From: Cloeon dipterum
Lineage: Eukaryota > Arthropoda > Insecta > Ephemeroptera > Baetidae
Assembly: GCF_949628265.1 (NCBI RefSeq)
Contig: NC_088789.1
Coordinates: 1,426,001 to 1,490,000 of the forward strand
Direction of reading: 5' to 3'
Length of the DNA: 64,000 nucleotides
A model generated the notes under the pieces. It did no database searches. It had not been told where the DNA came from and was given only the letters and a program-made list of their open reading frames with translations. Of this stretch, positions 965 to 64,000 are shown one piece after another; positions within the stretch are counted from its first letter, which is position 1; each line of letters begins with the position of its first letter. The translations under genes and the position numbers were made by a program.

Positions 965-3185
965 TTAAACCATTTTCTTAGCTTGCATGCTCATGCGATT
1001 CCTTCCAGGCCTGAAAAACCGCCTCCTGGATTTAGAGTCGACTAGCATCTGCGCTTGGCGTTTGATGAAGTTTCTAGTCGGAATTTCCTCTTCCTCCGAC
1101 TGCACCTCTTTGCTCTTCTGACTGTTCTGTTGAATTTCTGTTCTTTCGCTCGACGACTGGTGAGTGTAGCCGGCTCGACTTCCGAGCCGAGAGTGCGAGG
1201 CCCGCTCTCGCATTCGTTGCTCCTGCAGTGACCAACTGAAATTAATTTAACTGAGATTAAATTAAAATAGGCAAACCTCCTGCTTTTGCTGGGCGAGCTT
1301 GTGGGCCGCCAGCACTGCGTCCTCCACGAATAGCAGAGCAATGTGGTCCAAGTCCTTGCCTTCCGTGTCCAGTTTGTCCTCGTTCAAGTTGAACTCCTGC
1401 CGAATATTTTCAGATTTTCGGTTGCTTTTTTATGGAGTTTTCTTACTCTGAGAGAGTTGTAAATTTCAAGCAAGCATTTCATAATTCTCTCTTTAGTAGA
1501 CTTTCTCTCTTTGGTTTTCTTTATTATGTTGCACAGGTTTTTACCCTCTTGGACAATTTTTTCCTTTAATTCCTCTATTTCTTCTACATTTCTGAAAGAG
1601 AAATAAATTTTTATTATATCTATCAAACGCTTGAGACTCTCTCTGACATCTCCTTGCTCTTGACTTCTGCAGTGAATTTAGACATCTCCAATTTAGAAAT
1701 CAGTTCGCTCCTCTGAGCTTCCATCTTCCTCTTGTCATCTTCAGTCAAGCCCCTCAAATAGGTCAGTCGGTTTCTGGTCTCCTTCTGGCTGACAAACCTG
1801 TGCGTCACCATGCTTGGCTCAACTTCCCCTACAAAATTGTAAAAAGTGTCTATTAATTTAAATCTAGAGGTCAAAAATTAAAAAATGCAGGAAAAAAATG
1901 TCTTTTAGCAATTGGGTCGTTTCAGCCGCCGCCTTAAATCTCTAAAATAAACTGATTTTCATGCCTGTGGCCACCATGAGCTTCTTGTAGGAATCCTCCA
2001 GTGCCGAAGTAGAGTATTGGCTGAGGTTTTCGTCGTTTGTCGCGAGTCCGACGTTTTCCAACGAAGTGACAGAATCTCTGTGCAGTTGGGGAAGCATCCC
2101 TGACGAAGGGAAGAGCTGATGCTCCAGGTTCTCCAGCTCCACCCGCCGCTCCTCCACTATGATCCTCTGTTCCTGCAGCTTCCTCTCCCTTTCTTTGGCT
2201 TGGCGGATGGCCAGTTCGTCCTGGCGAACGAGCATCGCCCTGGTGGCGTCTCTGACTTGAAAGGCTTCACTCCTGATGGCCTGTGGAGGATTTTTGATCA
2301 GTCGCATAGTCGGATTTGGACATTACCTGCAACTTGTCTATTTCATCGCTTTGAGATTTTATTTCCGACTCAAGCTTTTGAAGAGATGCTTCATATTTTA
2401 CTGAGTCGTTTAGAAGATTTGATTTGATGGACGTGTACTTGCGACGAACAGTCTCAGCCTCCATGGCGTTCAGTTCGGTATGGTGGATTTTGTTTTCAAG
2501 CTCACTGATCCTCTTTTCAATTAAATTTTAATTTATACCGTATTGACATCCACTGATCTAAAACCTGTTTCTCGGGCGTTTTTTCGGCACTTTTGCACCT
2601 TTTCCGTTGGTACTGATCTGCCTCAACCCTCAGCCTTTCTCTATACTCGATAAGTTCGTTGTATTTTTCTTCAAACTGTAATCTGACTCGTAAAAGTATC
2701 GGTTGCCCCATATAGGAAAATGCTTTTACCTTATGTCGCTGGTATATTTTCAAATCCAATTTCTTGTTTAGTTCGATGATCCTGTATTCGATTACGTCGA
2801 GCGCTTCATCCGGCCTCTTATTGCTGAGCGGGAAGAAATCAGCCTTTGCACTCTTTGCTCTCTGATTAAAAATTTCCTCACTCTTGAATTATCATTTTGT
2901 TAAATTTTAATCCAAAATTTAAAAAAATATATACTTTGATGGGCTTTCCCAAATTGGCACACAACTCTTTCAGTTCATTTTTTAATTGATTGATCTTATC
3001 CGTGTTTTTCTTCTTTTCAATGCCGCACAGCTCGAATTTGGCCTTTCGCTGGCCCTCTAAAATGTGATTTTCAATAGCTGAATTAAATAATTAAAAATTT
3101 AACCACCTGAGAGCTGAATTTTCTTCTTGAGATCATTGATACTTTTAAAAATTTCTTCTTCTGTACTGCTCTTTTCTGAAGCCAT
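965..3185 (-). CDS. ODAD3: Outer dynein arm docking complex subunit 3 (CCDC151-like)
   Basis: A coiled-coil subunit of the complex that docks outer dynein arms onto ciliary and sperm-flagellar doublet microtubules. Ten coding exons on -: 3107-3185, 2935-3056, 2730-2861, 2565-2675, 2327-2512, 1965-2280, about 1648-1828, 1447-1591, 1277-1396 and 965-1222. They give about 549 aa (human about 595). Evidence includes IQLSEGQRKAKFE near residue 25 (human IQLLEGDRKAFFE), long charged heptads, KLMVATG before a conserved break, and an acidic then basic tail (EEEEIPTRNFIKRQ, then SKSRRRFF) matching the human C terminus. The intron between exons 6 and 7 seems to use a GC donor (1963-1964), or a weak GT about 12 bases further on. 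The end of exon 7 is the least certain boundary. The 5' part is duplicated in the right arm. Expression is expected in ciliated sensory neurons or testis (inference). Confidence 0.82.
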
Positions 3186-3675
3186 GTTTGCCAATCGTCC
3201 CATTCAGAGCCTAGGTATCCATGACAACTGACTGAGGGCTTTTTAATCAATAAATTAAAGCACAACCTAGCCTCTATCATGCAAAACAAATACTTTTAAA
3301 TAAAATGGGAAATCTAATATAAAAAAATAATTTATTTATTCGCCTCCTCGATCGATAATTTGTCGTTCTAAAATCCTGGATCCTGGCCAATTGATAAAAA
3401 ACTTACATGCTCTTAAATTATCATGAGCCAAATTTGAATTCAAAATATATTAAAAATTTGCACTTATAGACTTCCCCAAAATTTGAGCACAGCTCTTTCA
3501 GTTCATTACAAAATTGACTTCGTGTCTTTGTCCGTTTTCTTATTAATTAATGCCGGACAGCTCGAATCTGACCTTTCTCTGGCCCTCTAATGTGATGCAA
3601 AGCTTAATTCTTTACAAATCAGTTAATACCTCTGTAATTGAATAAAATGGGTAATCTAATATAGAAAATCTATAT
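3186..3675. other. Intergenic ODAD3-DCAF13 with a decayed ODAD3 exon
   Basis: This short gap separates two minus-strand genes. It contains the decayed exon-2 copy annotated separately. No other coding signal was seen. Confidence 0.6.
3471..3597 (-). pseudogene. Decayed extra copy of ODAD3 exon 2 (left arm)
   Basis: On the minus strand this resembles ODAD3 exon 2 (2935-3056): it starts with the same AGGGCCAG block, continues through a TTCGAGCTGTC-like stretch, and ends near GAAAGAGCTGTGCTC and TTTGGGGAAG. Indels destroy the frame. The same decayed exon sits at the mirror position in the right arm (about 19518-19640). The partial tandem copy therefore arose before the inverted duplication. Confidence 0.7.
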
Positions 3676-5654
3676 TTATTCATCTTCCTTTACAATCGCT
3701 TTGAGTTTTGAAGCCTTAATATGGACAGTTCCAGGTTTTGAGTGCGCCTTCCTGTTGAAATCCCTGGAAAGAAAATTTTGGTTTAGAATTGATATAAAAA
3801 ACGAAGCACAGCTGAAGACATACTTTCTCTTAATCTTCTGATAAATGATTTTATGTTCTTTCGCAGCATTGAAGATGTGCCTTGGCACTTGTCTATGGTT
3901 GGCAATGCGTTTTATTTGCGGATGAGTCATGAACTTCTCCTTCAGCGAGTTGCTGTACTCCAACGCTGCTTTCTCTCGAGGCTTGATCTAAAAATCGCAT
4001 AGCACTTTAGGAAAAACACAAAATTGCACCCCTCAACACACTCACCACCCCCTGTTTCTGCCAGGCAATTGCCTTCCACAGCCGCAAGTTCATCTCATCT
4101 GAGCCGGAGATGATGTACCGGCTGTCGTGCGTGTAAGCGACGCACGTCAGCCTCTGCATCCTTTTTGTGTGATAAACCTCTCGAGAGGTCGTCTGTAAAA
4201 ACAAGACTCAAATTAGAGTTCCATTAGAAAATCTGCAGCTCTTTACTTTGTGAGATTCGAAAATCCTGATTGTTTTGTCGTAGCTGCCGGAGACGAACTC
4301 GTTTCCCGTCGGGCAATAGTCCACGTCGATCACCGCGGATGTGTGGCCGACGTGCATCACAAGTGGATTAGACAGATTTCTGCAGTCGAATGTGTACAAA
4401 CTGAAAATAAATGTTTTCATGAGTTAATTTTTTTAAAGAAACCGAATTAATTCTCACTTGTAATCTTCCGATGCTGCAGTGAAGTTGAAAGCTTCCATCG
4501 GATTCCAGCAAAGTTTGTTCACCTTCATCTTCATGGTCAATTTCCGAACTGCGGTCGCCTGCCTAATGTCATAAATAATGATGCTCCGGTCGCTACTGCA
4601 AGCACCTGAAATAAATAATTAAGTGACCAATTAATATTTATATTTGAGGACAAGTTAGTTGCAAAAACCCGCATTTTTAGTTAAAAAAAAGATGCAGTGG
4701 AGTGGTAAAGAGCGATTTTTTCCTTTTTTGCCAGTTGGCACCTCAGTTTTCACTAATATTCTAATTATTTGCTCATGACCTCGATTTGAAAAATTGCCAC
4801 AGAGAAATGTTTGGAGAAATTGAGGAAAAGCAACAATCAACTCACCAATTAAATTAGTTTCTACTGGGTTAAATTGAACGCAGTGAATGGGGTCGACTCC
4901 CCAGTGCGTTGTAACGTCTGGAATAACTTTTACGCCGTCCCAGAGCTGGACAACCTCTCCACCAGTCACGAAGGTTTTAGAGTCCCGGCTGTGCGAGATG
5001 GAAAATATGCTATTCTGAAATTTTATGTTTTTTCAGTCTTGTGCGTGAAATAATCATGCCTTCATACCGTGCAGACAATTATAGATTTCGCCTTGTGTTC
5101 TTTACAGTCATCACTGTCCGTATTCCAAATTTTAATTGTCTTATCATCACCACAGGTGATCAGGTTTTCGCCGGTGGGATCAAAAGTCATGCCTTTAACA
5201 GATCCCTCGTGAGCTTTAACACGAGCCTGTTCTTTCCTTGAAGCCAAATTCCAAATTATGACCTGCGGCAGAGAAATTTTATACATTAAACGGAATAATT
5301 TTTAATGGAGGAATCAATCAACAACCTCGCCGTTGTAAGAGCCACTGGCCACGGTGGAGAGGCGCTCAGGGTGTTTGGCCACGCTAGTGACTCCGTCTCG
5401 ATGGCCATCCAGACAGCACAAGAACGGTTTAGCGAAAACTCGCTCCAATTTGACGGCATTTAACGCCTGCTTGTATTCTCGAGGCGCTTCTAACGGATGC
5501 AAATCAGGGTCATAATTTCTTTGCACTGGAATTTGGTACAAATTTAAGTGTTAGAGAAATCCGGGGCCGTTCTTCAAAACTCACTTTTATGCAGATCGTT
5601 TTTCGTCTCTCGGATGTACTGGTCCGGGTTACGAGAAAGCATTTTAACCTTCAT
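3676..5654 (-). CDS. DCAF13: DCAF13 / Sof1-like WD40 protein (left copy)
   Basis: The family acts as a U3 snoRNP/SSU-processome component in nucleolar 18S rRNA maturation and as a CUL4-DDB1 substrate receptor. Nine exons on -: 5585-5654, 5326-5525, 5068-5262, 4846-5014, 4458-4605, 4247-4400, 4046-4192, 3824-3987 and 3676-3763. They total 444 aa, essentially the human length (445). The start MKVKMLSRNPDQY matches the family. WD repeats follow, including LDGHRDGVTSVAKHPE, ITCGDDKTIKIW, CWNPMEAFNFTAASED and SGSDEMNLRLW. The basic Sof1 tail begins near residue 365 (REKAALEY, later RIANHRQVP). No frameshift or stop was seen. The right-arm copy is almost identical; I see Ser here versus Asn there at residue 373. 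It lies upstream of ODAD3 on the same strand. Confidence 0.92.
4660..4835. repeat. Family-A dispersed repeat in DCAF13 intron 4 (left)
   Basis: Inside the intron at 4606-4845. It shares CTCATGACCTCGA.TTGAAAAATTG and GGAGAAATTGAGG blocks with copies near 23.6, 23.9, 57.1 and 59.4 kb. The identical insertion is present in the right DCAF13 copy. Confidence 0.65.
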
Positions 5655-6271
5655 TGTGAAAATTTGCTAGGGAAATCAAAATGCGGTAAGGGTATACTAA
5701 AAAAACGAGGCTGCTTTCGGGTTTCGACTCTCGACGCACGACGTGTGATTTGAGATTGTGACGGGCCCGGTGCCTTACGTATGTTTATGTTTACCAGAGC
5801 CATCTAGTGGCGGGAGTGGGATTTCAAGAGGAGCGGGAATACTTTTGGCGGGATTGTTGTATTTTTACAGAAAAATACGATATTATTTATCAGGATGCGA
5901 TTCATTTACAAAAATCTTTTGCAAATTTTGATCCTATGAAATAAAAGAAATCTGAATCAGTGTATTAATTGTTGTAATTCATTCATTATTTTCTCCTTTC
6001 AGAAATCAAATGCAAATAAACAGGACTTCCCTAATTTCCATTGCATTTTATATTTTATGATGGATATTTTTAATTAATAGCAAAATGTCCTAACTGTACC
6101 AATGAAATGAAATAGATTTTTCTGGATAGTTTTGCAACAACAGTTTTATTGAAACCCAATACATAAATTTGTATTACCCTGACAAGTCTGTGACATAGTT
6201 TGTATTTGTATTAGTGAGGAGAAACATCAAATAATTAATAATAATATAACATAGTTTACAGATAGATGTTC
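5655..6271. other. DCAF13 upstream region / gap to the secreted-protein gene
   Basis: Upstream of DCAF13 (minus strand). About 5655-5965 is nearly base-identical to the right arm, whereas 6000-6270 differs by indels and substitutions. The segment near 5730-5840 is comparatively GC-rich and probably holds the DCAF13 core promoter (inference). No coding signal was seen. Confidence 0.5.
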
Positions 6272-6859
6272 TCATGTTTTGGAATCCATAACAAAACACA
6301 TAAGATTGTCATAGGCTGTGATAACGAGGAACGACTTGATTTTTACGTAGGTGCAAATAAGCACCGAACCACTGTCATAAGTCACTTCTATATTATTTGC
6401 AACAAATTTGAAAATACCTACATGTTCGCTATGTTTACCGGGTAGATTCGGTACTGAAACGAATAGATAAAAATTACCAAAGCTGGCATAAATCAAAATA
6501 TAAGTAATTATTACCGTAAAATTTTCTGTCAAAATATATTTTGTTATCGATTTTAAGCAATAATCTCACTTTTTCTTCTTCAGGCAGGTACCAGCCTGTG
6601 GCGCAGACTAGAAAAAGAGACATTTAAGATTTAATTTTTAAAACAAAATCAATATGAGTTTCTTTACCACTATACTTCATGAAATATGCTGTGAACGAGT
6701 CGCATAATTCATAGTGACCCTTCTCATCAGAGGCTGTCAAATTTTAATTAATTATGAGATTTAAAGATATATCAATAACTTTCAATGAAATTCCTTACCG
6801 TGAACGTTTCCACCAGCCAACAGGACGACGCCGGCGATGAAAAGAATGAGCCTCATCAT
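6272..6859 (-). CDS. Small secreted protein, unknown family
   Basis: I do not recognise this protein. Four exons on - with GT-AG junctions and compatible phases: 6799-6859, 6668-6733, 6515-6607 and 6272-6453. They give about 133 aa. It opens with a clear signal peptide (MMRLILFIAGVVLLAGG, cleavage near residue 20). The short mature domain has four visible cysteines (in YELCDS, VCATGW, VLICTY and NLMCFV) and a C-terminal half that reads as beta-rich (IEVTYDSGSVLICTY, FLVITAYDN). An extracellular disulphide-bonded product is the simplest reading. Two Met codons start the frame; the first is used here. The right arm holds a broken copy with a premature stop, so this is the only intact member in the window. 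A lipocalin-like fold is possible but unsupported. Confidence 0.6.
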
Positions 6860-6903
6860 GCTCGTATCAGAACGAGAGAAGAAATCATACCACGATTGGC
6901 GAA

Positions 6904-6925
6904 CAAGCACTATTTAAAGCTAAGT
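6904..6925 (-). promoter_or_regulatory. Candidate TATA-like element of the secreted-protein gene
   Basis: On the minus strand, GCTTTAAATAGTG lies about 50-60 bp upstream of the ATG. It is kept in all copies of this promoter (near 15815, 16590 and 16795), which argues that it belongs to the duplicated gene unit. No mapped start site supports it. Confidence 0.35.
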
Positions 6926-8521
6926 GTTTTTATTTGTATCCCAGGTACGTGTTGGAAATACAAACAAATATGCGAAAAATCAGTGGGCATTTCCCGGTCT
7001 TTTGAAATATAGCTTATTGCATTCCATTCTTGTTTGTATAAATATTTTGATATCAAGAATAGTTTGAATTGAAAGATGAAAAACGCTTCTATGTACAGAA
7101 GTATAATCGTTGTTCGATGAAAATAAATTATTATGGTCAGCAGTTTAAAATAAATGAACGCTCAAAACTTCCAGATGATTATTTTGTCAGAAAATATTTA
7201 TCGTCAAAATTGTCATAAATTTCAAATACCGTTTTCGCTGAATTAATCTTCGCAGTTTAGCCATTAGGTAGTTTCAAATTTAGGTGTAGGATGATGAACA
7301 CCGTCTGTTAATTTGATGATAATGCCTGCCATCAGCGCCTAGAGCCGATATCGATGCGGTGCTGCCATGCAACGATGCACTGCAAGTTGCATAAGTACAT
7401 TTAAGTATATAAATTCTAGACTTCTGTTGTGCCATTCATTTAATTTCTCTTTATTTGCGTAAGCTGGCGGGATGCCTTTTTGCAACTGTGAAATAACTGG
7501 AAGACAAATATCTTGCTGGTTTGCACCTTTCCAGCATGCGTGATTTGGCTTCACGGTACGAATGTCTAGCGTTTAAAGAAAAGTCCTCGTTGCGGAGGCA
7601 AGTGGCCCTTGAGTGGGCTGGGTCCCTGTGCGGCCTGGTGCGCACATGTTATCCGTTCGCGGTGTTATTGGCACCAGGGTTTCAGCATTCGTGCTAGCAC
7701 AGTGCGCGCCCTTCCCGCTCCTCGGACAGGGAAGAAAAGAAAAATAAATTAAAATTCATATATTTTTAAAGAATTGAATAAATGGCAGTAGTCTCTCATT
7801 TCAATATTTAATTTTTGCTTGAGCAAAATTGCAATCATTTTTGGTGGAGTCGCCCTTATATTATGAAGCATTGGGATATTTAGGTATAGTTGACAGGCAC
7901 TCCAGGGTCCATTCAAAACTCAGCCCCTCTGAAAAAAACTATTTTATTTTTATTTTTAATAATTTTGTGTCTTGTAATAACTTCTTTATATTTTTCCCAT
8001 CTTAAATTATCTTCTTTCTTCTCTTTTTAACTGGACCAATCAATCATTCAATTAAAAAGTAATATGTTTTCTCATATCATATATTTTTTTCGAGCATATA
8101 TACAACAGTTAAAGATCGTGAAAGGTATTATAATATTAATATGAATAAATTTGGTTTAAAGGCTACAAAAATAGCCGTTAATACTTATCTACTTTTGACG
8201 CAAAGGAAATCATCGCACAATTAGCTTTTGATTGTTTTAAAATCACGTTTTAATAATATTATGCGACTGTGTCATTGTTTATTTTGTTCTACTGAAATAC
8301 AAAAGGACTTGATGCGTAAAAGCTGTAAATAACAGTCAATACCTAATTAGTTGAAGTGTCATATTTAAAAAATAGTTAGTCATATCCCTCTTGCGCCGTC
8401 TATATGAATGGTGTTTTCAGTACATTTGAATTCTACAACACTAGCCGGCCGTTTTCCTGACAAAGGTGAGCTGCATTCGTGTAAATTCTGAGATGATAAT
8501 AAATTTACAATTTGATTTTAG
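6926..8521. other. Intergenic region, inner end of left arm and spacer
   Basis: Up to about 7740 this is diverged left-arm sequence; beyond that it is single-copy AT-rich spacer. Apart from the mirrored blocks I see no gene, RNA or transposon ends. A 5' UTR exon of the ABCA gene could lie just before 8521. Confidence 0.4.
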
Positions 8522-11500
8522 ATGCGTCAATTGGGCGTCTTGTTTTGGAAGAACACCATCCTGGTGCGGCGCCGGCATTGGTTCATTTCTATGCTGGAAT
8601 TCACCCTGCCTGTGCTGCTTTTTTCACTCTATACGCCTACATATATGCAAAAGAAATCCGTCCAACTCTTGACGAGGAGAACAATACGACCCGTTATTTT
8701 GAGCCTATTGATTCTTTAGTTTTGGTCTCTCCTCTATTACACAGGGATGTCTTCTACGCACCGAAAAACAACTTCATAGAGACTTTGGTCTTCAGAGCAA
8801 GCAATTATGGAAGATTCCAGAGTAAGATTTTGTGCGCTGAATATCGTTCATTCGGATTAATGATTGATACAAATTTATAGGCATGCAAGGATTTGACACT
8901 GAGGAAGAATTGCTGATGTTCAATATGACAAAAGGGACTATTGGCTTGATCTTTGAGGGAGATGCTGCCACAATTGTGAACGGCCAGGTGCCGAAGAAGC
9001 TTGACTACAAGATCAGAATTCAGGAACAATTTAAAACAGGGACACTGATTAATACCCGATCGGAATGTCCAAGATTTGAACACGAAGGTAAGATATATAG
9101 TACTATAGATATATATAGTTAAGCTTTTATTTTTACGTTCATTTAATGCTGTTATATCTGAAAATAAAAGTAAAACATGCTTTCTTGGATGGACTTAATA
9201 ACACGATGATGCACATAATTTAATTTCAAGATCCATATTTGTCGACTGGCTTCCTTGGAGTCCAACTGGTCACTAACAAAGCATTCATTGAGCTTGCTAA
9301 ATCCCAAGAAGAGCAGAAACCACCTGAAAACATCGACGACCAGATTCTTCTACAAAATATGCCTTGCCCGCCCTATTCATACGACCAAAATCCTATCTAT
9401 TTTTTGCCCTTTATTAGCATATTTAGTTTCTTGACCCTATGTGTCACTGTAACGAAACGAATTGTTGAGGAAAAACAATCAGGAGCAAAGGTTTTCACAA
9501 TTCATAATTAAAAGATATGGGAAAAATATCCAATTTTTTCTTAGGAGCTCATGATGCTGATGGGCATGGAAAAGTGGACTTTCTGGGTTGGTTGGTTCAT
9601 CGACGCTCTGCTCGTCAAAGCCTTGACCATCGGCTTCATCGTTTTTATTCTCAAAACCCCAATTGAAGAACAAGCCAATTTGATCGAGACGAGTCCTTCT
9701 CTTTTGTTTGTCATGTTTATCATGTATGGTGCCAGCGCTATTGTCTTCCTCTTTGCCCTCAGCACATTCTTCTCCGGCCGTAAGATTTTTCTTCCATTCA
9801 GGACGAGACAAGAATTAAGAGTTTATATTTTCAGCCGTCTTCGCAACGATTGTCAGTCTGTTTGCCTGGCTGTCACCCTTGGCCATTCCTTCTGAAAGAT
9901 GGAGAAACACTGGATTCTTCACCAAATGTCTCTATATGCTGTTTCCTAATATGGGCCTGTACTTTAGCTTCGATTCGGTTTATAAACTCGAGGAAAAAGG
10001 TAAATTTTCCAGTATTAATAATCCAACGATTGTAAATTTGACTTATGTATATATAGGCGTTGGTGCCCAGTGGAGCAACTTTTACACGCCTCTATCGCCA
10101 CACGACGCATCTATATTACAAGTGTTTATCATGTATCTCATTGACATCGTCCTCTACTCCATCATCACTTGGTACGTCAGTGAAGTGAATCCTGGCGAGT
10201 ACGGCTACAAGCAGCCATACCTGTTTTTTGCCACCAAGCAATACTGGCTTGGAGAAACAAATAAAATTGAGTTCAGTGAGTATCACAAAATAAACCGAAA
10301 CAAATTTAACGTTTTACGTATATATAGTTGAAGACCCTGACACACTGAGTCAAGAGAACTACGAACGGCCCCTGACTAATAACATGGCGGATGACAGGAT
10401 TGGAATCTCCATCAGGAACCTCAAAAAAACGTATCCTGGCAAACTGGGCGGTCCGGCTGTCAAGGCAGTGCGTGGCGTCTCGCTGGACATCTACAAAGGC
10501 GAAATCACAGCCTTTCTCGGTCACAACGGCGCTGGAAAAACGACCACGATGTCCATACTGACTGGAATGATTTCTCCTTCTGATGGCTTGGTGCAGGTTT
10601 TGGGACTCGAACTGAAAAACAACATTTCGCTTTTGAGAAAGTCCGTAGGGCTGTGTCCGCAGCACAACTTGCTCTTTGGAGAACTCACAGTTAAACAACA
10701 CCTCGTCTTCTTCGCCGTGGTAATAAACTACAGAGCAACTATTTTGTATTGTGCATAAAACGATTTAATTTTTAAAAAAGTTGAAAGGAAAATCGATGAA
10801 GGACGCAGTGAAAGAAGCAAAAGAACTTTTGCGCACTCTTCGTTTGGAATGTAAGATGGACGCGTTGGTGTCCGAACTGTCTGGAGGCATGAAGAGGAAA
10901 CTGCAGTTGGCTATAGCCCTCGTCGGAGGATCAAAGGTATAAACTATATTTTGGCCTGAAGATAAATTACAACCCATGCATACTGCAGGTTGTGATGTTG
11001 GACGAGCCCACTTCAGGCCTTGCTCCTGAAGCAAGGCGAGAGATCTGGGACCTCCTGCTGGTATTAACTTAACCTTTTAAGACAATTCATACTTAACAAT
11101 TTTTGAACAGCGTTTCAGAGAAAACAAAACCATCCTGTTGAGCACGCATTTCATGGAGGAAGCAGACGTGTTGGGTGACACAATAGTAATTATGTCGCGT
11201 GGAAGGATAGAATGTTGCGGCTCGACCATGTGTATTTGAAGAGACTCTTTGGTAACTCACACCCGCCTAATAAACACTTTAAATCTGAGCTAAATCAAAA
11301 CTAATCTTTAAAAGGTACTGGATATCGCCTGAGCCTGTTGACGACGAATAACTGCGACGAAAGCTCCCTGCAGAACGCTGTCAAACAAGTTCTTCCGGAA
11401 GCAATAGTTGAAAACTCTACGCAAGATACAACAAACTCGGCGAAAACCGGTCCTATCACATTCATCCTGCCAACAGAAAAGGTGGACCAATTCTCTAAGC

Positions 11501-12832
11501 TATTCGACGTCCTTGAAACTTCAAAGGATGATCTCGGAATTTCCAGTATTGGAGTGTCTGTCACTTCCATGGAAGAAGTGTTTTTAAAGTGAATATATAA
11601 AACATTCCTTTCCTGTTAATAGGTTTGTTAAAACTTATTAATATTCAGGGTTGGAGAATTGTCAGCAAGAAAATATGGCAGCGAAAGTTTGAAAGATTTT
11701 GACATAACGGACAGAGGGATGGACACCCTGAAAATTACCCAGACGATGAGATTAACCGGTATTTACCTCTTTTTCGAGCAATTCCGAGCTCTCCTAGTGA
11801 AAAAAGTAATCTTCTGCAAAAAGAACTGGTTCAACCTTCTCCTTCAGGTACATCCTGAATTCCATTGCTTTTCTTTAAATCTACATTTGCACTAAAATTT
11901 TTTGCAGGTTATCCTACCTATTTTACTAACTCTGAGTTCGGTTTTGTTGTCTTATCCTGGCGAGGCAGCAGTTGTCGTGGACTCCAACTCTACGTTGCCG
12001 TTAAAGCTGAGAGAGTACAGCTCAGGTGGCACTTTGCAGGTGCTGTACGAAAGGGATACTTCTAAACAGGCAGAACTATTCGCTAAAATCTTTGAAGAGA
12101 ACTTGCGAGGTGAAGCCAATGCAACTAAAGTACATCTTTAATTTTTTGATAGTAAATGTATGTTTATTTGTTCATTAAATTTTCATTAAGGTTAACGGGC
12201 TTCAAGAAAAATTAATTGATATTGGAACCAAAAGCCTTAAGGATTATCTATTGAACTACATCATTGCAGCCAACTTCACTACTGTTAATGAAGTATCGCA
12301 AATCACCGGCTTCTACAGCTTTTCCACTCCACATTCCGCGCCAATTTCTATGAATTCGATCTCAAACACTTTACTAAACTATCATCAATTTAGTCGCCTT
12401 AATAATATGGCTGGGTATTCCACAACTTGGCTGGATTTTCACCACCTCTATCAATCTAATTCTGCCTCTTCAGGAAAGGGTGCTCAAATCAAGGCAGCTA
12501 CAGGTATATATATAATTAATTGAAATCTATGAGGTTGATTAAAAAAACTTTCTTTAAGATGATGACCGGCTGTCCTGTTTATCTGATTTGGCTGAGCTAT
12601 TTGGTCATTGACGTGTTGATCACCTCGGTTGTGGTCATTCTCGTCCTTTTTCTGATTTACCTGGTTGACACGATGCACATTTTTTCCACCGGAACTGCAT
12701 TTGGTACTTGGTTTGTTCAAGTTTTGCTCCCAAACTAAAACCTAATCTGTGCAGGAGTTTTGTCCAGCATTTTGTTCTTGTACGGAACGTGTGGAACGCT
12801 GTTCGCTTATTTCATCAGCATCCCTACAAGAA
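8522..12832 (+). pseudogene. ABCA-type lipid transporter, frameshifted and 3'-truncated
   Basis: Relic of an ABCA full transporter (ABCA3-like; the family exports or flips lipids). Sixteen exon pieces: 8522-8821, 8881-9087, 9231-9490, 9545-9779, 9835-9999, 10057-10274, 10328-10719, 10781-10936, 10989-11060, 11111-11251, 11315-11588, 11649-11847, 11908-12129, 12191-12503, 12559-12703 and 12755-12832. They encode an N-terminal membrane segment (LGVLFWKNTILVRRRHW), TMD1, NBD1 (Walker A GHNGAGKTT near 10519, Q-loop PQHN, signature LSGGMKRKL, Walker B VVMLDEP, H-loop STH) and the start of TMD2. Three single-base frame breaks occur, each in or beside a T run: near 8610, near 11236 (the shift brings in TGA) and near 12390. 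The D-loop reads SGLAP rather than the usual SG.D. The rest of TMD2 and all of NBD2 are absent; homology stops at a CACGTG-rich repeat. Confidence 0.82.
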
Positions 12833-13000
12833 AAAACACGTGTCTGACTCGTGTCAAACCTGTGATTTTGGGTGCGTGTACACAAGTTACAAACACGTGT
12901 TTGTCACCTGTCTGACACGTCACTAAGTTCGTGCCAAACACGTGTTTTTCGCACAAGTTCACGTGTTGACACGTGTTAAACACGTGTCATATTAAATTGC
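12833..13000. repeat. Cluster of six CACGTG palindromes
   Basis: CACGTG occurs at 12837, 12894, 12939, 12960, 12970 and 12981, mostly inside a degenerate unit AAACACGTGT, with further half-sites (CGTGTCAAAC, GACACGTCAC). It begins exactly where ABCA homology ends. It could be the sub-terminal repeat array of an inserted transposon or a satellite-like array. The other end of such an element was not found. Confidence 0.6.
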
Positions 13001-13186
13001 GATTAGCGCTTATATATAGGTATTTTTGATTCAATTCGAGTACAAATAAGGAAATATAATTGAAACAAACATATTTATTTGCTACACTTGATAAAGATTT
13101 TAATTCCTTGGTTTCCAAAACATGGTACATCAATCATTTTACTTAAACACTAATTCAGTTTCCGCATAGAAAAAAGAGCATAACAG

Positions 13187-13820
13187 AATCTGTCATAGAC
13201 TACACTCAAAGGGAAAATCCTTACGGTGAGAAGCAAAATGCGGCTCTCAAATTGAGAACGCAATTTTGAGTCTGACCGTGAGTAGCAGAGAGGTGGTCTG
13301 GCGCTTTTGGATCTCACAGATCCTCGCTTCAATCTCACAGTGAGGTCAAAAAGCGGCCAGCCTTCTCGTACTCTAGGGTACAACCCAAATGCTCGCTCGC
13401 TTCAGTCTCGACTGAGAGCGAGCGTTTCAATCGCACAGTGAGATCCAAAAAAGCGTTCGGTCTCGCTTCTGGTATTCAAGGTGAGACTTAAAGTTTCGCC
13501 CCGAATTTGAGAGCCGCATGTCTCACTGTGAGTAGCAGAGGCGACCAGACGCTCTTGGATCTCACAATTAGATCGAAACTCTCGCTCTCAGTCGATACCG
13601 AAGCGAGCGAGCATTTGGGTTCAACCCTTGAGTACGAGAAGGCTGAACGCTTTTTGATCTCACTGTGAGATTGAAGCGAGGATCTCGGCGAGATCCAAAA
13701 GCGACAGACCGCCTCTCTCTGTTAGTCACGGCGAGACTCAAAATTGCGTTCTCAATTTGAGAGCCGCATTTTGCTTCTCACCGTAAGGATTTTCCCTCTG
13801 AGTGTAGTCTATGACAGATT
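13187..13820. mobile_element. 634-bp near-perfect palindromic foldback/MITE
   Basis: The two halves are inverted repeats. The left end (AATCTGTCATAGACTACACT) is mirrored at the right end, and pairing continues inward for about 300 bp to a centre near 13500 with few mismatches. Inside are many short CTCAC(A/T)GTGAG-like units and repeated GCGAGCGAGCATTTGGGTT-type blocks. No coding capacity and no clear target duplication. A transcript across it would form a very long hairpin. Confidence 0.8.
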
Positions 13821-15439
13821 AAGTGTGTAAAAGATTAAGCTGCATTACATTACGATCGTTCAGTTTCAACAAAACAATAGATAAAAGCACTGTAAATCAG
13901 ATAATTTTTTTATAATTAATATGCTTGCTGGGTTTCAAAATAAAATAAAAAGTAAAGCGACCGAGGTCAATTGTTGTTGAAATTAGGAAATGTATCAAAA
14001 TAATATAAATTTTAAATATAAAACCACCATTAACATTTTCCTCACATGCCTCCTCTTCTCCCTCTGCATCAGGTGATCCTTCACAGGCTGTTCTCTTTCA
14101 GCTGCTTCTACTTCTCCTTCCCTTTCTCCTTCTTCTTCGACCTGGCGCGTACTTGCCATCTCTAAAAAGGTCAAAAAATGAATATAAACGATTATTTGAT
14201 ATTTTGGTTTGTAGAACAGTTACGTAGCATAACTTTTTCGCGTATAATATAAAAATGTATTCCAGGCCATATTAATAGTTTCAATATTTTCGCATTTTTT
14301 TCATTTTTAGTTTTGTTTCTTTTGTTTATTTTTTTAATTAATTAATTTTAATTAATTCTATTTTAAAGGTTCAATTTGCTTTATGCATTTTCAATTTTTA
14401 AATCTTCAAATATATACTGATTAATTTTTGAAATGAAATAAAATAAAGTATTTCATTCCAGACTTGCTTCATTTCTGTACTTAGGATTTAAAAAAAAATT
14501 AAAACAGTATAGGAGGACTAAGGAAATTGTATTGAGGTAATTTTTAATTTGCTTTAAAAATAGGTTTTAAATGAGTTAATAACAGTTTTAATCAAATTGC
14601 ATCTTAAAAATGTTTTCACTGAAACGCATAAAAATGAAATTGTACACATACAATGGTTGTACAGAATATAAACGATGCGAAAAGTGTTTAAAGATGATTG
14701 ATACAAGGCGACAATTAATTTTTTTTTAATAATTGGATGCAAAAATCAGTCGATTTATTATTTTAAAATAATAAAAAAGAACTTGCTAGAAAATATTCCG
14801 ATTTTTCTAAGATTTTTAGAAAATTTCCAGCGTTTGACCGCATTTTTGGCAAATTTCCTCTCGTCGAGATCTTTCCAACAGCGTATATGAAACTTTTTAG
14901 GGGAATTATTTGTTGCGAAATTTCAGATTTCAAGTAAGGATAGGCAGTCCTCATCATTTAAAAAGCATGATAACATTTCAGCCAATTTTCTCAAATATTT
15001 ACAGTGCTAATTAAGGATTATCTTGCTTGGTGTTTTTCCTGAAATAAAGGTTTTACTATAACTAATGTCAGGATATCATAAACTATTTTGGTCACGAGTA
15101 ATTATACAATTTAGTCACATTTTTCTTTCTTATCTTAACAGCAAAATATAACTTGATTTTTATTCATTTTTATTTGGTGTCAACTTTGCAAGTATGTAAT
15201 GTATGTATAACAATTTTTTAATTCCAAGTGAAATAATGATGCGGTTGGAAACCTAAATATCTAACCACAACAGTGTGTGACTCTGCGCGTGGCTGCTATG
15301 TTATTTAATAAAGTTTGACAATAATTTTTACCTCTAAATAGTCAGAATAGACGATTTGAAACGGGTTTTAAATGATTTTGGTAAATATAGACGATTTCAA
15401 GTATGATTCAGCATAAATAATTGCATTTTTTTGTTCTTT
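13821..15439. other. AT-rich spacer between the arms
   Basis: Very AT-rich. It contains a reverse-orientation family-C repeat at about 14705-14960. A short open frame on - from 14157 begins MASTRQVEEEG and runs about 50 codons; it is not supported as a gene. Nothing else was recognised. Confidence 0.4.
14705..14960. repeat. Family-C repeat (reverse) in the spacer
   Basis: Shows TTTCCTCTCGTCGAGATCT, CAACAGCGT and TTTCAAGTAAGGA, as in the other family-C copies. Confidence 0.6.
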
Positions 15440-15869
15440 TTATGCCTGTCCGAGGAGCGGGAAGGGCGCGCACTGTGCCTATATATAGCACGCATGCTGA
15501 AACCCGCGAATGCCACACACATGGGCCCACCAGCCCAGTGAAGGCGAAAACGCGGTATTTGAAAATTTTGCTGATGATAAAGTTTTGAGCGTTCATTTAT
15601 TAAACTGCGAACCAAAAGAATTTTTTTTCATCAAACAACGATTATCCTTCTTTACGTGGAAGCGTTATCTTGACAGCAAAATATTTATACAAACAAGAAT
15701 GGAATGCAAAATAGCTAATATTTCAAATGACCTGGAAATGCCCACTGATTATTTCGCATATTTGTTTGTCTTTCCCTCACGTACCTGGGATATAAATAAA
15801 AACACTTGGCTTTAAATAGTGCCTTTTCGCCAATCGTGGTATGATTTCTTCTCTCGTTCTGATACGAGC

Positions 15870-16310
15870 ATGATGAGGCCCATTCTTTTCATCGCCGGCG
15901 TCGTCCTGTTGGCTGGTGGAAACGTTCACGGTAAGGAATTTCATTGAAAGTTATTGATATATCTTTAAATCTCATAATTAATTAAAATTTGACAGCCTCT
16001 GATGAGAAGGGTCACTATGAATTATGCGACTCGTTCACAGCATATTTCATGAAGTATAGTGGTAAAGAAACTCATATTGATTTTGTTTTAAATATTAAAT
16101 CTAAAATGTCTCTTTCATAGTCTGCGCCAAAGGCAGGTAGCTGACTGAAGAAGAGACAGTGGAATTCGTCCTTGAAATCGATGACAAAAAATATTTTGAC
16201 AAACATATATCTCTGGTAATTATTACTTATATTTTAATTTATGCCAGCGTTGATAATTTTCATAATTTTTATCCAATTGTTTCAGTACCGAATCTGCCCG
16301 AACACTTTCC
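15870..16310 (+). pseudogene. Broken copy of the small secreted-protein gene
   Basis: Exon 1 (15870 onward, MMRPILFIAGVVLLAGG) and exon 2 match the left-arm gene with the same splice sites. In exon 3 the Tyr codon after the Gly-Trp position of the left copy has become TAG (near 16137), stopping the protein after about 50 residues. Exon 3 then continues out of register and exon 4 is recognisable only at its start (CCGAATCTGCCCG near 16285). The sequence then switches to a reverse-orientation copy. Confidence 0.75.
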
Positions 16311-16541
16311 CTTCTTCAGGCAAGTACCAGAGCCTGTCGCAGGTATTTCATCAAGTAAGCCGTGAAAGTATCGCAGTATTGATAGTATATCCATTCTCAT
16401 CCGGATTAGAGACTGTCAAATTTGAATTAATTATGAGATTTAAAGATATATCAATAACTTTCAATGAAATTCCTTACCGTGAACGTTTCCAGAAGCCAAC
16501 AGGACGACGCCGGCGATGAATAGAATGGGCCTCATCATGCT
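16311..16541 (-). pseudogene. Inverted partial copy of the secreted-protein gene
   Basis: On the minus strand, exon 1 (MMRPILFIAGV, ATG at 16539-16541), intron 1, exon 2 and the start of exon 3 can be followed, but many substitutions interrupt the frame. The intron between exons 2 and 3 appears to be missing here. This copy faces the 15870 copy, making a local inverted repeat centred near 16205. Confidence 0.6.
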
Positions 16542-16570
16542 CGTATCAGAACGAGAGAAGAAATCATACC

Positions 16571-16821
16571 ACGATTGGCGAAAAGGCACTATTTAAAGCT
16601 AAGTGTTTTTATTTGTATCCCAGGTACGTGTTGGAAAGACAAACAAATATGCGAAATAATTTCCCGGTCTTTTGAAATATATTGCTTATTGCTTTTGGAA
16701 ATCAATAAGCTATATTTCAAAAGACCGGGAAATTATTTCGCATATTTGTTTGTCTTTCCAACACGTACCTGGGATACAAATAAAAACTCTTAGCTTTAAA
16801 TAGTGCTTGTTCGCCAATCGT
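16571..16821. repeat. Perfect-core palindrome of the secreted-gene promoter
   Basis: 16571-16681 and 16711-16821 are inverted copies of the gene's promoter, including the TTTAAATAG element, separated by about 29 bp. The innermost 31 bp on each side (16651-16681 and 16711-16741) pair without mismatch by eye. A third degenerate start region follows near 16848. Confidence 0.8.
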
Positions 16822-17456
16822 GGTGGGATTATTTCTTCTTTCGTTCCGATGAGCATGAGGCGCGTCAATATAAATATTTTGCTGTCAACAATAGTTTGAA
16901 TTGCATAGATTATGTATTACTTACTTATCTTACTCTTATCTTTTGTATTGGGTTTCAATAAATCTATGTTGTTGCAAAACTATCCAGAAAATTTCTTTCA
17001 TTTCAGTTGTCCAGCAGTTAGGAAATTTGCCATTAATTTAAACCTTCCGTCATAAAATATAAAATGCAATGGAAATTAGGGAAGTCCTTGTTTATTTGCA
17101 TTTGATTTCTGAAAGGAGAAAATAATGAATGAATTACAACAATTAATACACAGATTCAGATTTCTTTTATTTCATAGGATCAAAATTTGCAAAAGATTTT
17201 TGTAAATGAATCGCATCCTGATAAATAATATCGTATTTTTCTGTAAAAATACAACAATCCCGCCAAAAGTATTCCCGCTCCTCTTGAAATCCCACTCCCG
17301 CCACTAGATGGCTCTGGTAAACATAAACATACGTAAGGCACCGGGCCCGTCACAATCTCAAATCACACGTCGTGCGTCGAGAGTCGAAACCCGAAAGCAG
17401 CCTCGTTTTTTTAGTATACCCTTACCGCATTTTGATTTCCCTAGCAAATTTTCACA
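16822..17456. other. DCAF13 upstream region (right copy)
   Basis: From about 17145 to 17456 this is nearly identical to the left arm's 5655-5965 in reverse complement. Nearer 16830-17140 the two arms differ by indels. No coding signal was seen. Confidence 0.5.
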
Positions 17457-19435
17457 ATGAAGGTTAAAATGCTTTCTCGTAACCCGGACCAGTACATCCG
17501 AGAGACGAAAAACGATCTGCATAAAAGTGAGTTTTGAAGAACGGCCCCGGATTTCTCTAACACTTAAATTTGTACCAAATTCCAGTGCAAAGAAATTATG
17601 ACCCTGATTTGCATCCGTTAGAAGCGCCTCGAGAATACAAGCAGGCGTTAAATGCCGTCAAATTGGAGCGAGTTTTCGCTAAACCGTTCTTGTGCTGTCT
17701 GGATGGCCATCGAGACGGAGTCACTAGCGTGGCCAAACACCCTGAGCGCCTCTCCACCGTGGCCAGTGGCTCTTACAACGGCGAGGTTGTTGATTGATTC
17801 CTCCATTAAAAATTATTCCGTTTAATGTATAAAATTTCTCTGCCGCAGGTCATAATTTGGAATTTGGCTTCAAGGAAAGAACAGGCTCGTGTTAAAGCTC
17901 ACGAGGGATCTGTTAAAGGCATGACTTTTGATCCCACCGGCGAAAACCTGATCACCTGTGGTGATGATAAGACAATTAAAATTTGGAATACGGACAGTGA
18001 TGACTGTAAAGAACACAAGGCGAAATCTATAATTGTCTGCACGGTATGAAGGCATGATTATTTCACGCACAAGACTGAAAAAACATAAAATTTCAGAATA
18101 GCATATTTTCCATCTCGCACAGCCGGGACTCTAAAACCTTCGTGACTGGTGGAGAGGTTGTCCAGCTCTGGGACGGCGTAAAAGTTATTCCAGACGTTAC
18201 AACGCACTGGGGAGTCGACCCCATTCACTGCGTTCAATTTAACCCAGTAGAAACTAATTTAATTGGTGAGTTGATTGTTGCTTTTCCTCAATTTCTCCAA
18301 ACATTTCTCTGTGGCAATTTTTCAAATCGAGGTCATGAGCAAATAATTAGAATATTAGTGAAAACTGAGGTGCCAACTGGCAAAAAAGGAAAAAATCGCT
18401 CTTTACCACTCCACTGCATCTTTTTTTTAACTAAAAATGCGGGTTTTTGCAACTAACTTGTCCTCAAATATAAATATTAATTGGTCACTTAATTATTTAT
18501 TTCAGGTGCTTGCAGTAGCGACCGGAGCATCATTATTTATGACATTAGGCAGGCGACCGCAGTTCGGAAATTGACCATGAAGATGAAGGTGAACAAACTT
18601 TGCTGGAATCCGATGGAAGCTTTCAACTTCACTGCAGCATCGGAAGATTACAAGTGAGAATTAATTCGGTTTCTTTAAAAAAATTAACTCATGAAAACAT
18701 TTATTTTCAGTTTGTACACATTCGACTGCAGAAATCTGTCTAATCCACTTGTGATGCACGTCGGCCACACATCCGCGGTGATCGACGTGGACTATTGCCC
18801 GACGGGAAACGAGTTCGTCTCCGGCAGCTACGACAAAACAATCAGGATTTTCGAATCTCACAAAGTAAAGAGCTGCAGATTTTCTAATGGAACTCTAATT
18901 TGAGTCTTGTTTTTACAGACGACCTCTCGAGAGGTTTATCACACAAAAAGGATGCAGAGGCTGACGTGCGTCGCTTACACGCACGACAGCCGGTACATCA
19001 TCTCCGGCTCGGATGAGATGAACTTGCGGCTGTGGAAGGCAATTGCCTGGCAGAAACAGGGGGTGGTGAGTGTGTTGAGGGGTGCAATTTTGTGTTTTTC
19101 CTAAAGTGCTATGCGATTTTTAGATCAAGCCTCGAGAGAAAGCAGCGTTGGAGTACAACAACTCGCTGAAGGAGAAGTTCATGACTCATCCGCAAATAAA
19201 ACGCATTGCCAACCATAGACAAGTGCCAAGGCACATCTTCAATGCTGCGAAAGAACATAAAATCATTTATCAGAAGATTAAGAGAAAGTATGTCTTCAGC
19301 TGTGCTTCGTTTTTTATATCAATTCTAAACCAAAATTTTACTTCCAGGGATTTCAACAGGAAGGCGCACTCAAAACCTGGAACTGTCCATATTAAGGCTT
19401 CAAAACTCAAAGCGATTGTAAAGGAAGATGAATAA
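17457..19435 (+). CDS. DCAF13: DCAF13 / Sof1-like WD40 protein (right copy)
   Basis: Second full copy of the ribosome-biogenesis WD40 protein. Nine exons on +: 17457-17526, 17586-17785, 17849-18043, 18097-18265, 18506-18653, 18711-18864, 18919-19065, 19124-19287 and 19348-19435. They encode 444 aa. Every exon edge mirrors the left copy at coordinate sum 23111, so there is no net indel over about 2 kb including eight introns. Differences noticed are Asn (here) versus Ser at residue 373 and one base in intron 8. All splice sites and the stop are intact, so it should be functional. The immediate upstream sequence (about 300 bp) is also nearly identical, so both copies may be expressed alike. Such identity in introns points to very recent duplication or gene conversion rather than selection. 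Confidence 0.92.
18276..18451. repeat. Family-A dispersed repeat in DCAF13 intron 4 (right)
   Basis: Mirror of the left-arm intronic repeat at 4660-4835. The insertion therefore predates, or was copied by, the event that made the arms identical. Confidence 0.65.
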
Positions 19436-19517
19436 ATATAGAATTTTCTATATTAGATTACCAATTCTATTTAATTACAGAGGTGTTAACTGATTTTTAG
19501 TGAATTAATTCAGCTGT

Positions 19518-19640
19518 GCATCATATTAGAGGGCCAGAGAAAGGTCAGATTCGAGCTGTCAGGCATTAAAAAGTAAGAAAACGGACAAAGACAAGAAGTC
19601 AATTTTGTAATGTACTGAAAGAGTTGTGCTCGAATTTTGG
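19518..19640 (+). pseudogene. Decayed extra copy of ODAD3 exon 2 (right arm)
   Basis: Plus-strand counterpart of the left-arm decayed exon, starting at the AGAGGGCCAGAG block and ending near TTTGGGGAAG. It is frame-broken and differs from its left partner at several positions, in contrast to the adjacent DCAF13 copies. Confidence 0.68.
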
Positions 19641-19940
19641 GGAAGTCTATAAGTGTAAATTTTGAATATATTTTGAATTCAAATTTGGCTCATGATAATC
19701 TAAGAGCATGTAAGTTTTTTTTATGAAAGAATTGGCCAGGATCCAGGATTGTAGAACGACAAATTAACGATCGAGAAGGCGAATAAATAAAATATTTATT
19801 TATATATATTAGATTTCCCATTTTATTTAAAAGTATTTGTTTTGCATGATAGAGGCTAGGTTGTGCTTTAATTTATTGATTAAAAAGCACTCAGTCAGTT
19901 GTCATGGATACCTAGGCTTTGAATGGGACGATTGGCAAAC

Positions 19941-20499
19941 ATGGCTTCAGAAAAGAGCAGTACAGAAGAAGAAATTTTAAAAAGTATCAATGATCTCAAG
20001 AAGAAAATTCAGCTCTCAGGTGATTTAATTTTAAATTAATTAATTCAGCTATTGAAAATCACATTTTAGAGGGCCAGCGAAAGGCCAAATTCGAGCTGTG
20101 CGGCATTGAAAAGAAGAAAAACACGGACAAGATCAATCAATTAAAAAATGAACTGAAAGAGTTGTGTGCCAATTTGGGAAAGCCCATCAAAGTATATATT
20201 TTTTTAAATTTTGGATTAAAATTTAACAAAATGATAATTCAAGAGTGAGGAAATTTTTAATCAGAGAGCAAAGAGTGCAAAGGCTGATTTCTTCCCGCTC
20301 AGCAATAAGAGGCCGGATGAAGCGCTCGACGTAATTGAATACAGGATCATCGAACTAAACAAGAAACTGGATTTGAAAATATACCAGCGACGTAAGGTAA
20401 AAGCATTTTCCTATATACGGCAACCGATACTTTTTACGAGTCAGATTACAGTTTGAAGGAAAATACAACGAACTTATCGAGTATATTCTGCCTGGTTAA
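19941..20499 (+). pseudogene. Truncated 5' copy of ODAD3 with intact short frame
   Basis: Exons 19941-20019, 20070-20191 and 20265-20396 reproduce ODAD3 exons 1-3 with conserved splice sites and open frame. They carry a few substitutions (a Phe to Leu near residue 15, a His to Arg at the end of exon 3). The fourth exon starts at 20452 and follows ODAD3 for about 11 codons to the duplication breakpoint at 20485. It then runs into new sequence and stops at TAA 20497-20499. A product of about 126 aa with the N-terminal coiled coil could be made. It is called a pseudogene because more than three quarters of the protein is missing, but expression is not excluded. Confidence 0.75.
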
Positions 20500-22147
20500 G
20501 AAATATTCATGGTTTTAAGTGTGATATAAACGAAAATTGTCAAAGACTGCAAAACTGACTGAATGCATATATTTCAATTTTATTTTGTGTTGAACAAAGA
20601 GAGAAGCAAAGACTATTAAAAATTTCTCTAATTGTTTTTACAAATTGTATTTTGACTCTGTGTGGCATCCCCAACAGCCTTAGCGAATATGTATTATGTA
20701 TTGTTGTGGACCCTTTTCTATGTTGAATTTTTATGTGATGTCGAACCGTTAAAATGATCAACTTGATGGTGATACAAACAATGTAAAGCATTGTGTTATT
20801 TTGAAATAATAATAAAATAAATCACATTTGTATGAAATCAAATTCTTAAACCGTTTTTTATTTCATGATTGCTTCTTGTATAATTTAAGAGTATTTTTCA
20901 AATATATACTTTGTTCATAACTTTGTAATGGAAATAATAATAGTTATTTCAATAGAAGTCTTTGAAAGTGTCTCCTGATATTACAATTACTTTTACGACT
21001 GTTGGAATTAATTCAATGCAAAGTGGAAGCGTGCCTATCACACTTAAATTTAAACCTCTTAATGAATCCAGGAAAAAATGGAATAGTTCTAATTATTCCG
21101 TCGCCGCGCGATCGTCTTTCTTATTGTCAGCTTTGCATGCTGGGCGCGTTCTATACGGCTCTAGAACCAGTGAGGCGATCTCCTTTTAGGCATTCCCTCA
21201 TTGGAGCAATAGTGGTTTTTGATGTTATATACAGCCAAAGGGTATAAATTCGTTTGGGTGAAGGAGGGCAAGATATTTGTTCGCCGCAGCGAGCAACTTG
21301 GTGCTCTGATTAGAATCCGTTTTAGAGGACAAATCAGTACACCCCGCCCCTGCCCTGCAAAGGGCGTTCTGAAACTCGCACAAAATATCCAAAATTTACT
21401 GCATAACTATTTGTTCTGTCGATTCGTTCAATACAATGTTATTCTCGACAGAGTGCGCCAGTTTCCCGCAGCAGTTTCCCGCCTTGTTGTGGCTTGCGTT
21501 TGGTCGACTCCGCCCCCTCGCAGCTGTTTTCGATTCGATTCCCGTTGACAAGAAGAGCAGCAGTCTGCAATTATTTTCCTTCGAAAAACCTTGAAATATT
21601 ACTATTTGCTCGCGTATTCGCAGCATATATTTATTGATTACTAAAACCACAGTATATTAGGTAAGCATTATTCGAGTTGTTGAGGAAAATGCGACCTCAG
21701 TTTTCATTATTTACGGCTCACAAAACGCCAATAATCTTGATTCGCCATTTCGTATTATTTTTTTTTCTCTCGGTGACTAATCTCTTTAATTATATTCAGA
21801 GTCGCAATAATTAATGCATTGAAGTATGATTAATCGTTTTCAATTCGCTGTTCTCTGCTCAGAGCTGTATTTTCCACACACAAAGGCTCGACCTTGAATT
21901 AATTCTTGCACCAGTGACGCCCAAAAGCTGTTTTTAAAACCAGTTGTAAATCACATGCTCACCATGTAGAGTGGAATAACACAAAACAAAGATATCAAGC
22001 AGCGAGCAAATGTGTTTTCTTCAGAACGAAAATCAGAAATCAAACAGCAGCAAGAATAACAATACAATTTAAATTGTGCAATGAATTTGTTAGCCACAAT
22101 GCCAAATTTTATTTTCGGACACTATTAACAGCCTTGAATTATTGCAG
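20500..22147. other. Intergenic and FUNDC1 upstream region
   Basis: Single-copy sequence beyond the right breakpoint. 20500-21250 is AT-rich with no convincing gene. 21300-21560 is richer in G+C, with a CCGCCCC box near 21510, and may be the FUNDC1 promoter. A donor-like TTAG/GTAAGC near 21660 could end a 5' UTR exon joining the acceptor at 22147. Both are tentative. Confidence 0.35.
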
Positions 22148-31522: not shown

Positions 31523-63402
<31,880 letters not shown>

Positions 63403-64000
63403 TTTTACAGCCGCGCACCGACCAATTTTGGAGGAGATGACCAACTTCAGCTCTCAGCGGCTCATGGCACTAACACAGCACTGCGGTTCTTTGCGTCCCT
63501 CCTGGACAGTCGTCCAGCCACTTGGCCGACGAGTCACACTCAGTCTCGCGCGCGCGCCGATGTTACCTGCTGCTCGTATCGCTGCTCGCCGTGTTCTGAC
63601 CAAGCACAAGCACCAGCTCAGGCAATAGAGCTAAGCCCGTAGCCGAGTTTACGCCTGCAGCACGGAGCCCGCCACTTGTTTTGTTTCTCCTCTCTCACGA
63701 CTCGCGCGCCAACTACGGAGCTACGGCCGATACAAAACTAACGAGATTTTGGTTGCTGGTGCTGGCATCTAGCGTCAGAATCTTCATTCAGATTCTGGGA
63801 CGAGTGAGAAGTTGGGGAACAGAGGAGTACGATGAGGAGTAAAAAATAATTTTATAAAATTTGTTTGTTTTAATCGTTTTAACATATTTAATTTTGACAC
63901 TTCTATCAGGATGATTGAGAAATAAATCTTGTGACGATAACCCTTAGGACGAATGACAGAAAAAGACAAATAATTGGTTTGGTGCTCGTGCGCAGTTGGC
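63403..64000 (-). promoter_or_regulatory. Yorkie 5' UTR and promoter region
   Basis: A CpG-rich stretch upstream of the start (about 63410-63780) with pyrimidine/purine-rich runs, then AT-rich sequence. No TATA box at a clear position, fitting a housekeeping CpG promoter (inference). Nothing recognised beyond 63790. Confidence 0.35.
63454..63465 (-). promoter_or_regulatory. Short upstream ORF in yorkie leader
   Basis: ATG AGC CGC TGA lies about 52 bp upstream of the yorkie start on the same strand. If the leader includes it, it could lower translation. Confidence 0.35.

Follow-up and report, generated by a model that had tools for sequence, protein, structure and literature searches.

Two copies of DCAF13 stand as mirror images in a 64,000-bp stretch of the Cloeon dipterum genome (the window) and are nearly identical, introns and upstream DNA included, between flanks that are collinear and clearly diverged. 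This pattern makes it very probable that recent interlocus gene conversion took place between the inverted arms, after an old inverted duplication and subsequent divergence. Converted cores in mirror-image gene pairs have been described before, and the DCAF13 pair adds a new and clear example of this known process. What sets it apart is the gene itself, the length of a tract that includes introns and is bordered on each side by collinear DNA, and the presence of a second tract in these arms.

Inverted arms and their surroundings

The window (C4:1426001-1490000) lies on a contig of 36.4 Mb, in an assembly of 190,111,064 bases and 10 contigs; the whole analysis rests on the sequence of this one assembly, from one genome. 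Self-comparison of the window recovered a main inverted pair (2642-6167 vs 20485-16941; Table 1), continued inward by 6470-7170 vs 16260-15580 with 88.8% identity. The innermost aligned piece (7697-7749 vs 15478-15425) is part of a dispersed repeat. The arms, about 5 kb long, reach from 2642 and 20485 on the outside to about 7749 and 15425 on the inside, and their main blocks are about 10.8 kb apart. The mirror arms, their coordinates and the constant coordinate sum of 23111 reported in a first-pass annotation were borne out, and its arm span (2642-7740 and 15440-20485) nearly so, with the inner limits corrected. The arms carry close paralogues in inverted orientation, as in interlocus conversion of the hsp70/Amy type.

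Table 1 Features of the inverted arms and the spacer (positions in the window).
Feature	Position	Strand	Details
Left arm, main block (ODAD3 5' exons, DCAF13, upstream DNA)	2642..6167	-	97.7% identity over 3,548 columns
Right arm, main block	16941..20485	+	Inverted match to left block
Outer flank, left (ODAD3 exons 1-3, start of exon 4, degenerate second exon 2 region)	2642..3771	-	4.2% diverged; 48 events in 1,135 columns (segmentation)
Outer flank, right (ODAD3 fragment cut in exon 4 at 20485)	19340..20485	+	Stop a few codons past the breakpoint
DCAF13, left copy	3676..5654	-	9 exons, 444 aa, GT-AG introns, open frame; human DCAF13 match; Sof1 domain
DCAF13, right copy	17457..19435	+	9 exons, 444 aa, GT-AG introns, open frame; one synonymous difference and S373N vs left copy
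Dispersed repeat in DCAF13 intron 4	4683..4825	.	Identical in both arms; 74-91% identity to at least 38 other genome places
Near-identical tract (inferred conversion tract), left	3772..6060	-	4 events in 2,290 columns, 0.2%
Near-identical tract, right	17050..19339	+	Segmentation
Inner-flank segment	6061-6168		20.7% diverged; 23 events in 111 columns
Inner-flank segment, treated as unalignable	6169-6434		143 events in 273 columns
Inner-flank segment	6435-6636		18%; 37 events in 205 columns
Second near-identical tract (5' part of putative peptide gene), left	6637..6903	-	1 event in 267 columns, between 18% and 12% flanks
Second near-identical tract, right	15826..16092	+	Segmentation
Inner-flank segment	6904-7170		12%; 30 events in 247 columns
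Two further partial peptide-gene copies	16405..16858	.	Opposite orientations, facing; right arm only
Dispersed repeat, inner end of left arm	7512..7764	.	88-94% identity among the matches listed elsewhere
Piece of the same repeat, inner end of right arm	15414-15506		75-85% identity
Spacer ABC-transporter gene	8155..12384	+	ABC_tran domain at 10294-10758; paralogues on C1, 82-83%
Spacer repeat element	12819..15013	.	Copies elsewhere at 89-91%

The best solved relative of the outer-flank gene is outer dynein arm-docking complex subunit 3 (ODAD3, E 1.7e-6). Its exons 1-3 are open in both arms and differ at 5 of 354 bases, with three of the differences synonymous. In the left arm the frame continues open beyond the breakpoint position, as far as examined. 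The right one is broken by truncation, running into foreign DNA within exon 4. Copies of this foreign DNA (20485-20655) lie at C4:1381140-1381316 (93%) and on C2 (80-81%), so the breakpoint adjoins a repeat. Divergence of the outer flank over 2642-3668 is about 4%, with 41 substitutions in 1,027 bp and some small indels; 27 of the substitutions fall in the 429 bp between ODAD3 and DCAF13 (3240-3668). Directly past the DCAF13 stop codon the DNA is AT-rich and carries small indels, which may have halted homology. The neighbours of DCAF13 had been described as decaying, with broken genes. Decay was found on the spacer side, the second tract excepted, and in part past the stop codon, but not in the left ODAD3 exons examined; breakage applies to the truncated right ODAD3 and not to exons 1-3. 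Both arms also contain a second, degenerate copy of the exon 2 region of ODAD3 (3392-3596 vs 2863-3068, and mirrors), which is probably older than the palindrome, since the copies are only about 75% alike.

The spacer transporter is presumably of the ABCA type. Elsewhere in the window, an open frame of 344 aa (44193-45227, minus strand) looked by eye like a Tc1/mariner-type transposase, and the frame at 62833-63453 has a WW-like motif resembling Yorkie/YAP. Rfam gave no match in the window at the gathering threshold. Of five small contigs examined in the assembly, four (C6-C9) begin in tandem arrays and C10 does not; the unit is 72 bp in C7 and C9, and C6 and C8 have AT-rich units, many of them about 50 to 150 bp long. 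None of eight telomere motifs (at least four units in a row) turned up in the initial 10 kb of these five contigs. A COX1 search of the assembly, aimed at a mitochondrial contig, yielded a single weak match that fell below the cut-off.

Two DCAF13 copies

DCAF13 is a ribosome-assembly factor and is essential in other organisms. It is oriented outward in both arms, and the two genes thus stand head to head. The pair was identified as DCAF13/Sof1 by a full-length match of the left copy (residues 1-440 aligned to 1-441 of human DCAF13; 7mq8, E 1.1e-161) and by the C-terminal Sof1 domain in both copies. In the whole assembly, PF04158 (Sof1) had two matches above the cut-off among three candidates scored, and both are these copies. 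Both are presumably functional.

The coding sequences differ at 2 of 1,335 bases, one synonymous and one changing an amino acid. Introns 1-7 have no differences between the arms and intron 8, the last, has two; upstream there are one substitution and a one-base indel. The S of the left copy at the S373N site is probably derived, because human DCAF13 carries N there. The copies, together with about 300 bp upstream, had initially been called identical save for isolated substitutions; they are near-identical, introns included, with these few differences, and the upstream part extends nearer to 400 bp.

A 134-bp fragment upstream of both copies (5788-5920, mirror 17191-17323) recurs with 89% identity at C4:1371203-1371334, about 55 kb away. 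This match was considered as a third DCAF13 copy and rejected, being merely a short common fragment. Within the window copies of the fragment, CCACTAGATGGC resembles the CTCF core motif; a degenerate form of this CTCF-like core matched in the window only in these two fragments.

Divergence profile and the near-identical tract

Differences between the arms were listed singly, and the profile was then segmented without borders set beforehand. The first-pass annotation had anticipated a plateau near 100% with sharp edges at about 3676 and 5990. Such a plateau was found, with edges at 3772 and 6060 by segmentation, or from about 3669 to 6060 when counting to the first dense differences. Only 5 substitutions occurred in the 2,352 bp at 3669-6020. 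The longest run free of differences covered 1,858 bp (4101-5958), 830 bp of which are non-coding. Uniform divergence, named at the outset as the outcome that would speak against conversion, was rejected for this run, with P 3.6e-15 (46 substitutions, 2642-6020) and P 3.3e-23 (74 events, whole block). As controls we used 7 of 21 other pairs of at least 400 bp in the 214-kb neighborhood, several of which have one repeat in common and are therefore not independent. Their longest exact runs were 20-91 bp (P 0.0125-0.42), and even divergence was mildly rejected in four of the seven (P 0.0125-0.048). Rates vary along the DNA, as seen in the controls and the uneven outer flank, which makes the P values given here too extreme. 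The DCAF13 run nevertheless lies far beyond the control range, its excess being many orders larger.

Purifying selection could hold the two genes alike while their flanks drift, and a coding difference of just 2 in 1,335 bases would agree with it. This explanation is extremely improbable, because the exact run is unchanged at its synonymous sites and its 830 non-coding bases too. The plateau (3669-6020) has 3 differences in 1,017 non-coding bases and the outer flank 41 in 1,027 (P 1.2e-9), a conservative test, since the outside figure takes in ODAD3 exons. The initial argument that protein selection cannot account for identical introns was thus upheld, with seven of the eight introns unchanged.

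The junction between plateau and outer flank is collinear, with no indel >6 bp in the alignment. Both flanks are collinear, indicating that the duplication was larger than the plateau. If the DCAF13 block alone had been duplicated recently and had landed between older paralogous flanks, no conversion would be involved. This fits an inner flank made of a peptide gene that is present in several copies and has a separate history, but hardly the 4% outer flank, collinear and joined to the plateau without such an indel. Moreover, swapping exactly the matching stretch between collinear flanks would be conversion in effect. We regard a separate block duplication as very unlikely. The near-identical tract, non-coding DNA included, lies between collinear diverged flanks, as expected from gene conversion. 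This supports the conversion tract of about 2.3 kb proposed earlier, in which introns and about 400 bp upstream are near-identical between flanks at 4% and about 20%.

Second tract and peptide-gene copies

In the inner arms there is a small gene with a first exon like a signal peptide, which by eye looks like a secreted-peptide gene. Except for the tract at 6637-6903, divergence in the inner flank is strong (12-21%), and part of the flank is unalignable. The longest exact run of this second tract was 212 bp (P 8e-10 under even divergence).

For a mosaic test, the left, the right and the first extra peptide-gene copy were compared; blocks of sites disagreed on the closest pair, and the order of sites was shuffled. 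With 32 patterned sites, alignment ends included, there were 6 switches, reached by 0 of 20,000 shuffles. When the two alignment ends were trimmed of one three-way and 12 patterned sites, 20 sites and 4 switches remained, reached by 1 of 20,000 shuffles (5 of 20,000 with a fresh seed). Without five sites in a gapped stretch the count was 23 of 20,000, and the signal was weaker (263 of 20,000) when, in addition, three doublets were counted once (12 sites). This suggests exchange among the peptide-gene copies, independent of DCAF13. We read the second tract and the three-copy mosaic as additional signs that these arms have exchanged sequence. The inner flank with its extra peptide copies could come partly from an earlier event.

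Near-identity might also be produced by the assembly, either by two haplotypes placed as inverted arms or by polishing that made near-identical copies identical. That the only two Sof1 matches in the assembly are the two arms would be in line with such an artefact. However, the main block ends sharply in ODAD3 exon 4 and is followed by different DNA, the spacer has its own transporter gene, and the extra peptide-gene copies are confined to the right arm. With 79-88% identity, the inner flank has diverged far beyond the rest, which would be unexpected for two haplotypes, and the five differing sites within 3669-6020 show that the copies are not one collapsed sequence. An artefact is therefore improbable.

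Proposed mechanism and significance

Under gene conversion, an old inverted duplication of a block with the ODAD3 5' end, DCAF13 and the small peptide gene would have produced two arms about 10.8 kb apart, followed by divergence between them. In a recent event, a break in one of the DCAF13 copies would have been repaired from the mirror-arm copy, presumably by homology-directed repair, and about 2.3 kb would have been overwritten, from near the stop codon as far as some 400 bp before the ATG. A separate, shorter conversion may have homogenized the 5' part of the peptide gene. That the middle was overwritten after divergence is the simplest explanation for flanks that are collinear at 4% and about 20% and a core that is almost unchanged. 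The unequal flank values suggest more than one conversion round or an older inner part; several rounds are possible. The event is likely recent.

Both near-identical tracts sit on genes and their upstream DNA, with about 20% divergence or more between them. Conversion might therefore be gene-centered, selection having repeatedly kept events that rescued a damaged essential housekeeping copy, and the small, possibly autosomal palindrome would then act as a self-repair device. We consider this doubtful.

In the open-licence literature we found no report joining DCAF13 with gene conversion and duplication, and none joining interlocus gene conversion of inverted duplicates with ribosome biogenesis. 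The pair is a clean natural example, in which one alignment separates conversion from protein selection and from recent block duplication, and the second tract is a partial replicate of the conversion pattern. Two full DCAF13 copies could serve to measure conversion and to ask whether it delays the loss of a redundant copy.

Comparison with known systems

In Drosophila, the palindromic pairs Hsp70Aa/Hsp70Ab and Amy-p/Amy-d are homogenized by ectopic gene conversion (PMC3924832). The DCAF13 copies are likewise linked mirror-image paralogues that have probably been homogenized. The Amy pair is described as having flanks that evolve independently and a coding-only pattern (PMC3924832). The DCAF13 tract, unlike Amy, takes in introns and about 400 bp upstream, its blocks are 10.8 kb apart, and it concerns a ribosome-assembly gene.

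For C. elegans, a review describes the inverted hsp-16 modules and col-12/col-13 as fully or nearly identical with diverged flanks, read as conversion; in the tandem pair col-12/col-13 an intron lies within the identical stretch (PMC3966223). DCAF13 has the same near-identity with diverged flanks, including introns as in col-12/col-13, although it is inverted and not tandem. The flanks of the C. elegans cases have little or no similarity, and hence the review leaves recent duplication possible; C. elegans conversion tracts are given there a mean of 117 bp (range 12-2,958 bp, 7,829 pairs) (PMC3966223). In contrast, the DCAF13 flanks are collinear at 4% and about 20%, which argues for overwriting, and the tract is about 2.3 kb long.

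In the Stratiomys hsp70 cluster, conversion homogenizes coding sequence and the 3' ends less (PMC3071340). Both are insect gene copies, homogenized by conversion in Stratiomys and probably so here, but the Stratiomys genes form a multi-copy stress-gene cluster with mostly no mirror pair.

The arms of mammal sex-chromosome palindromes are reported to be >99% identical and kept alike by arm-to-arm conversion (PMC8981503). Inverted arms, and probably arm-to-arm conversion, are common to both systems. Here, near-identity is limited to about 2.3 kb and the 267-column tract in arms of about 5 kb, and identity does not exceed 99% along nearly the whole arms: it is 97.7% in the main block and 79-88%, or unalignable, in the inner part outside the 267-column tract.

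Palindromic blocks have been reported in parthenogenetic animals, for which a survey found no major role (PMC5490193, PMC7953838). Those of Folsomia candida are multi-gene with a wide Ks range, and according to the authors concerted evolution does not account for them (PMC5490193). Like them, the DCAF13 arms are inverted collinear gene blocks on one scaffold of an arthropod genome; they differ from these multi-gene blocks of wide Ks, which were not attributed to concerted evolution.
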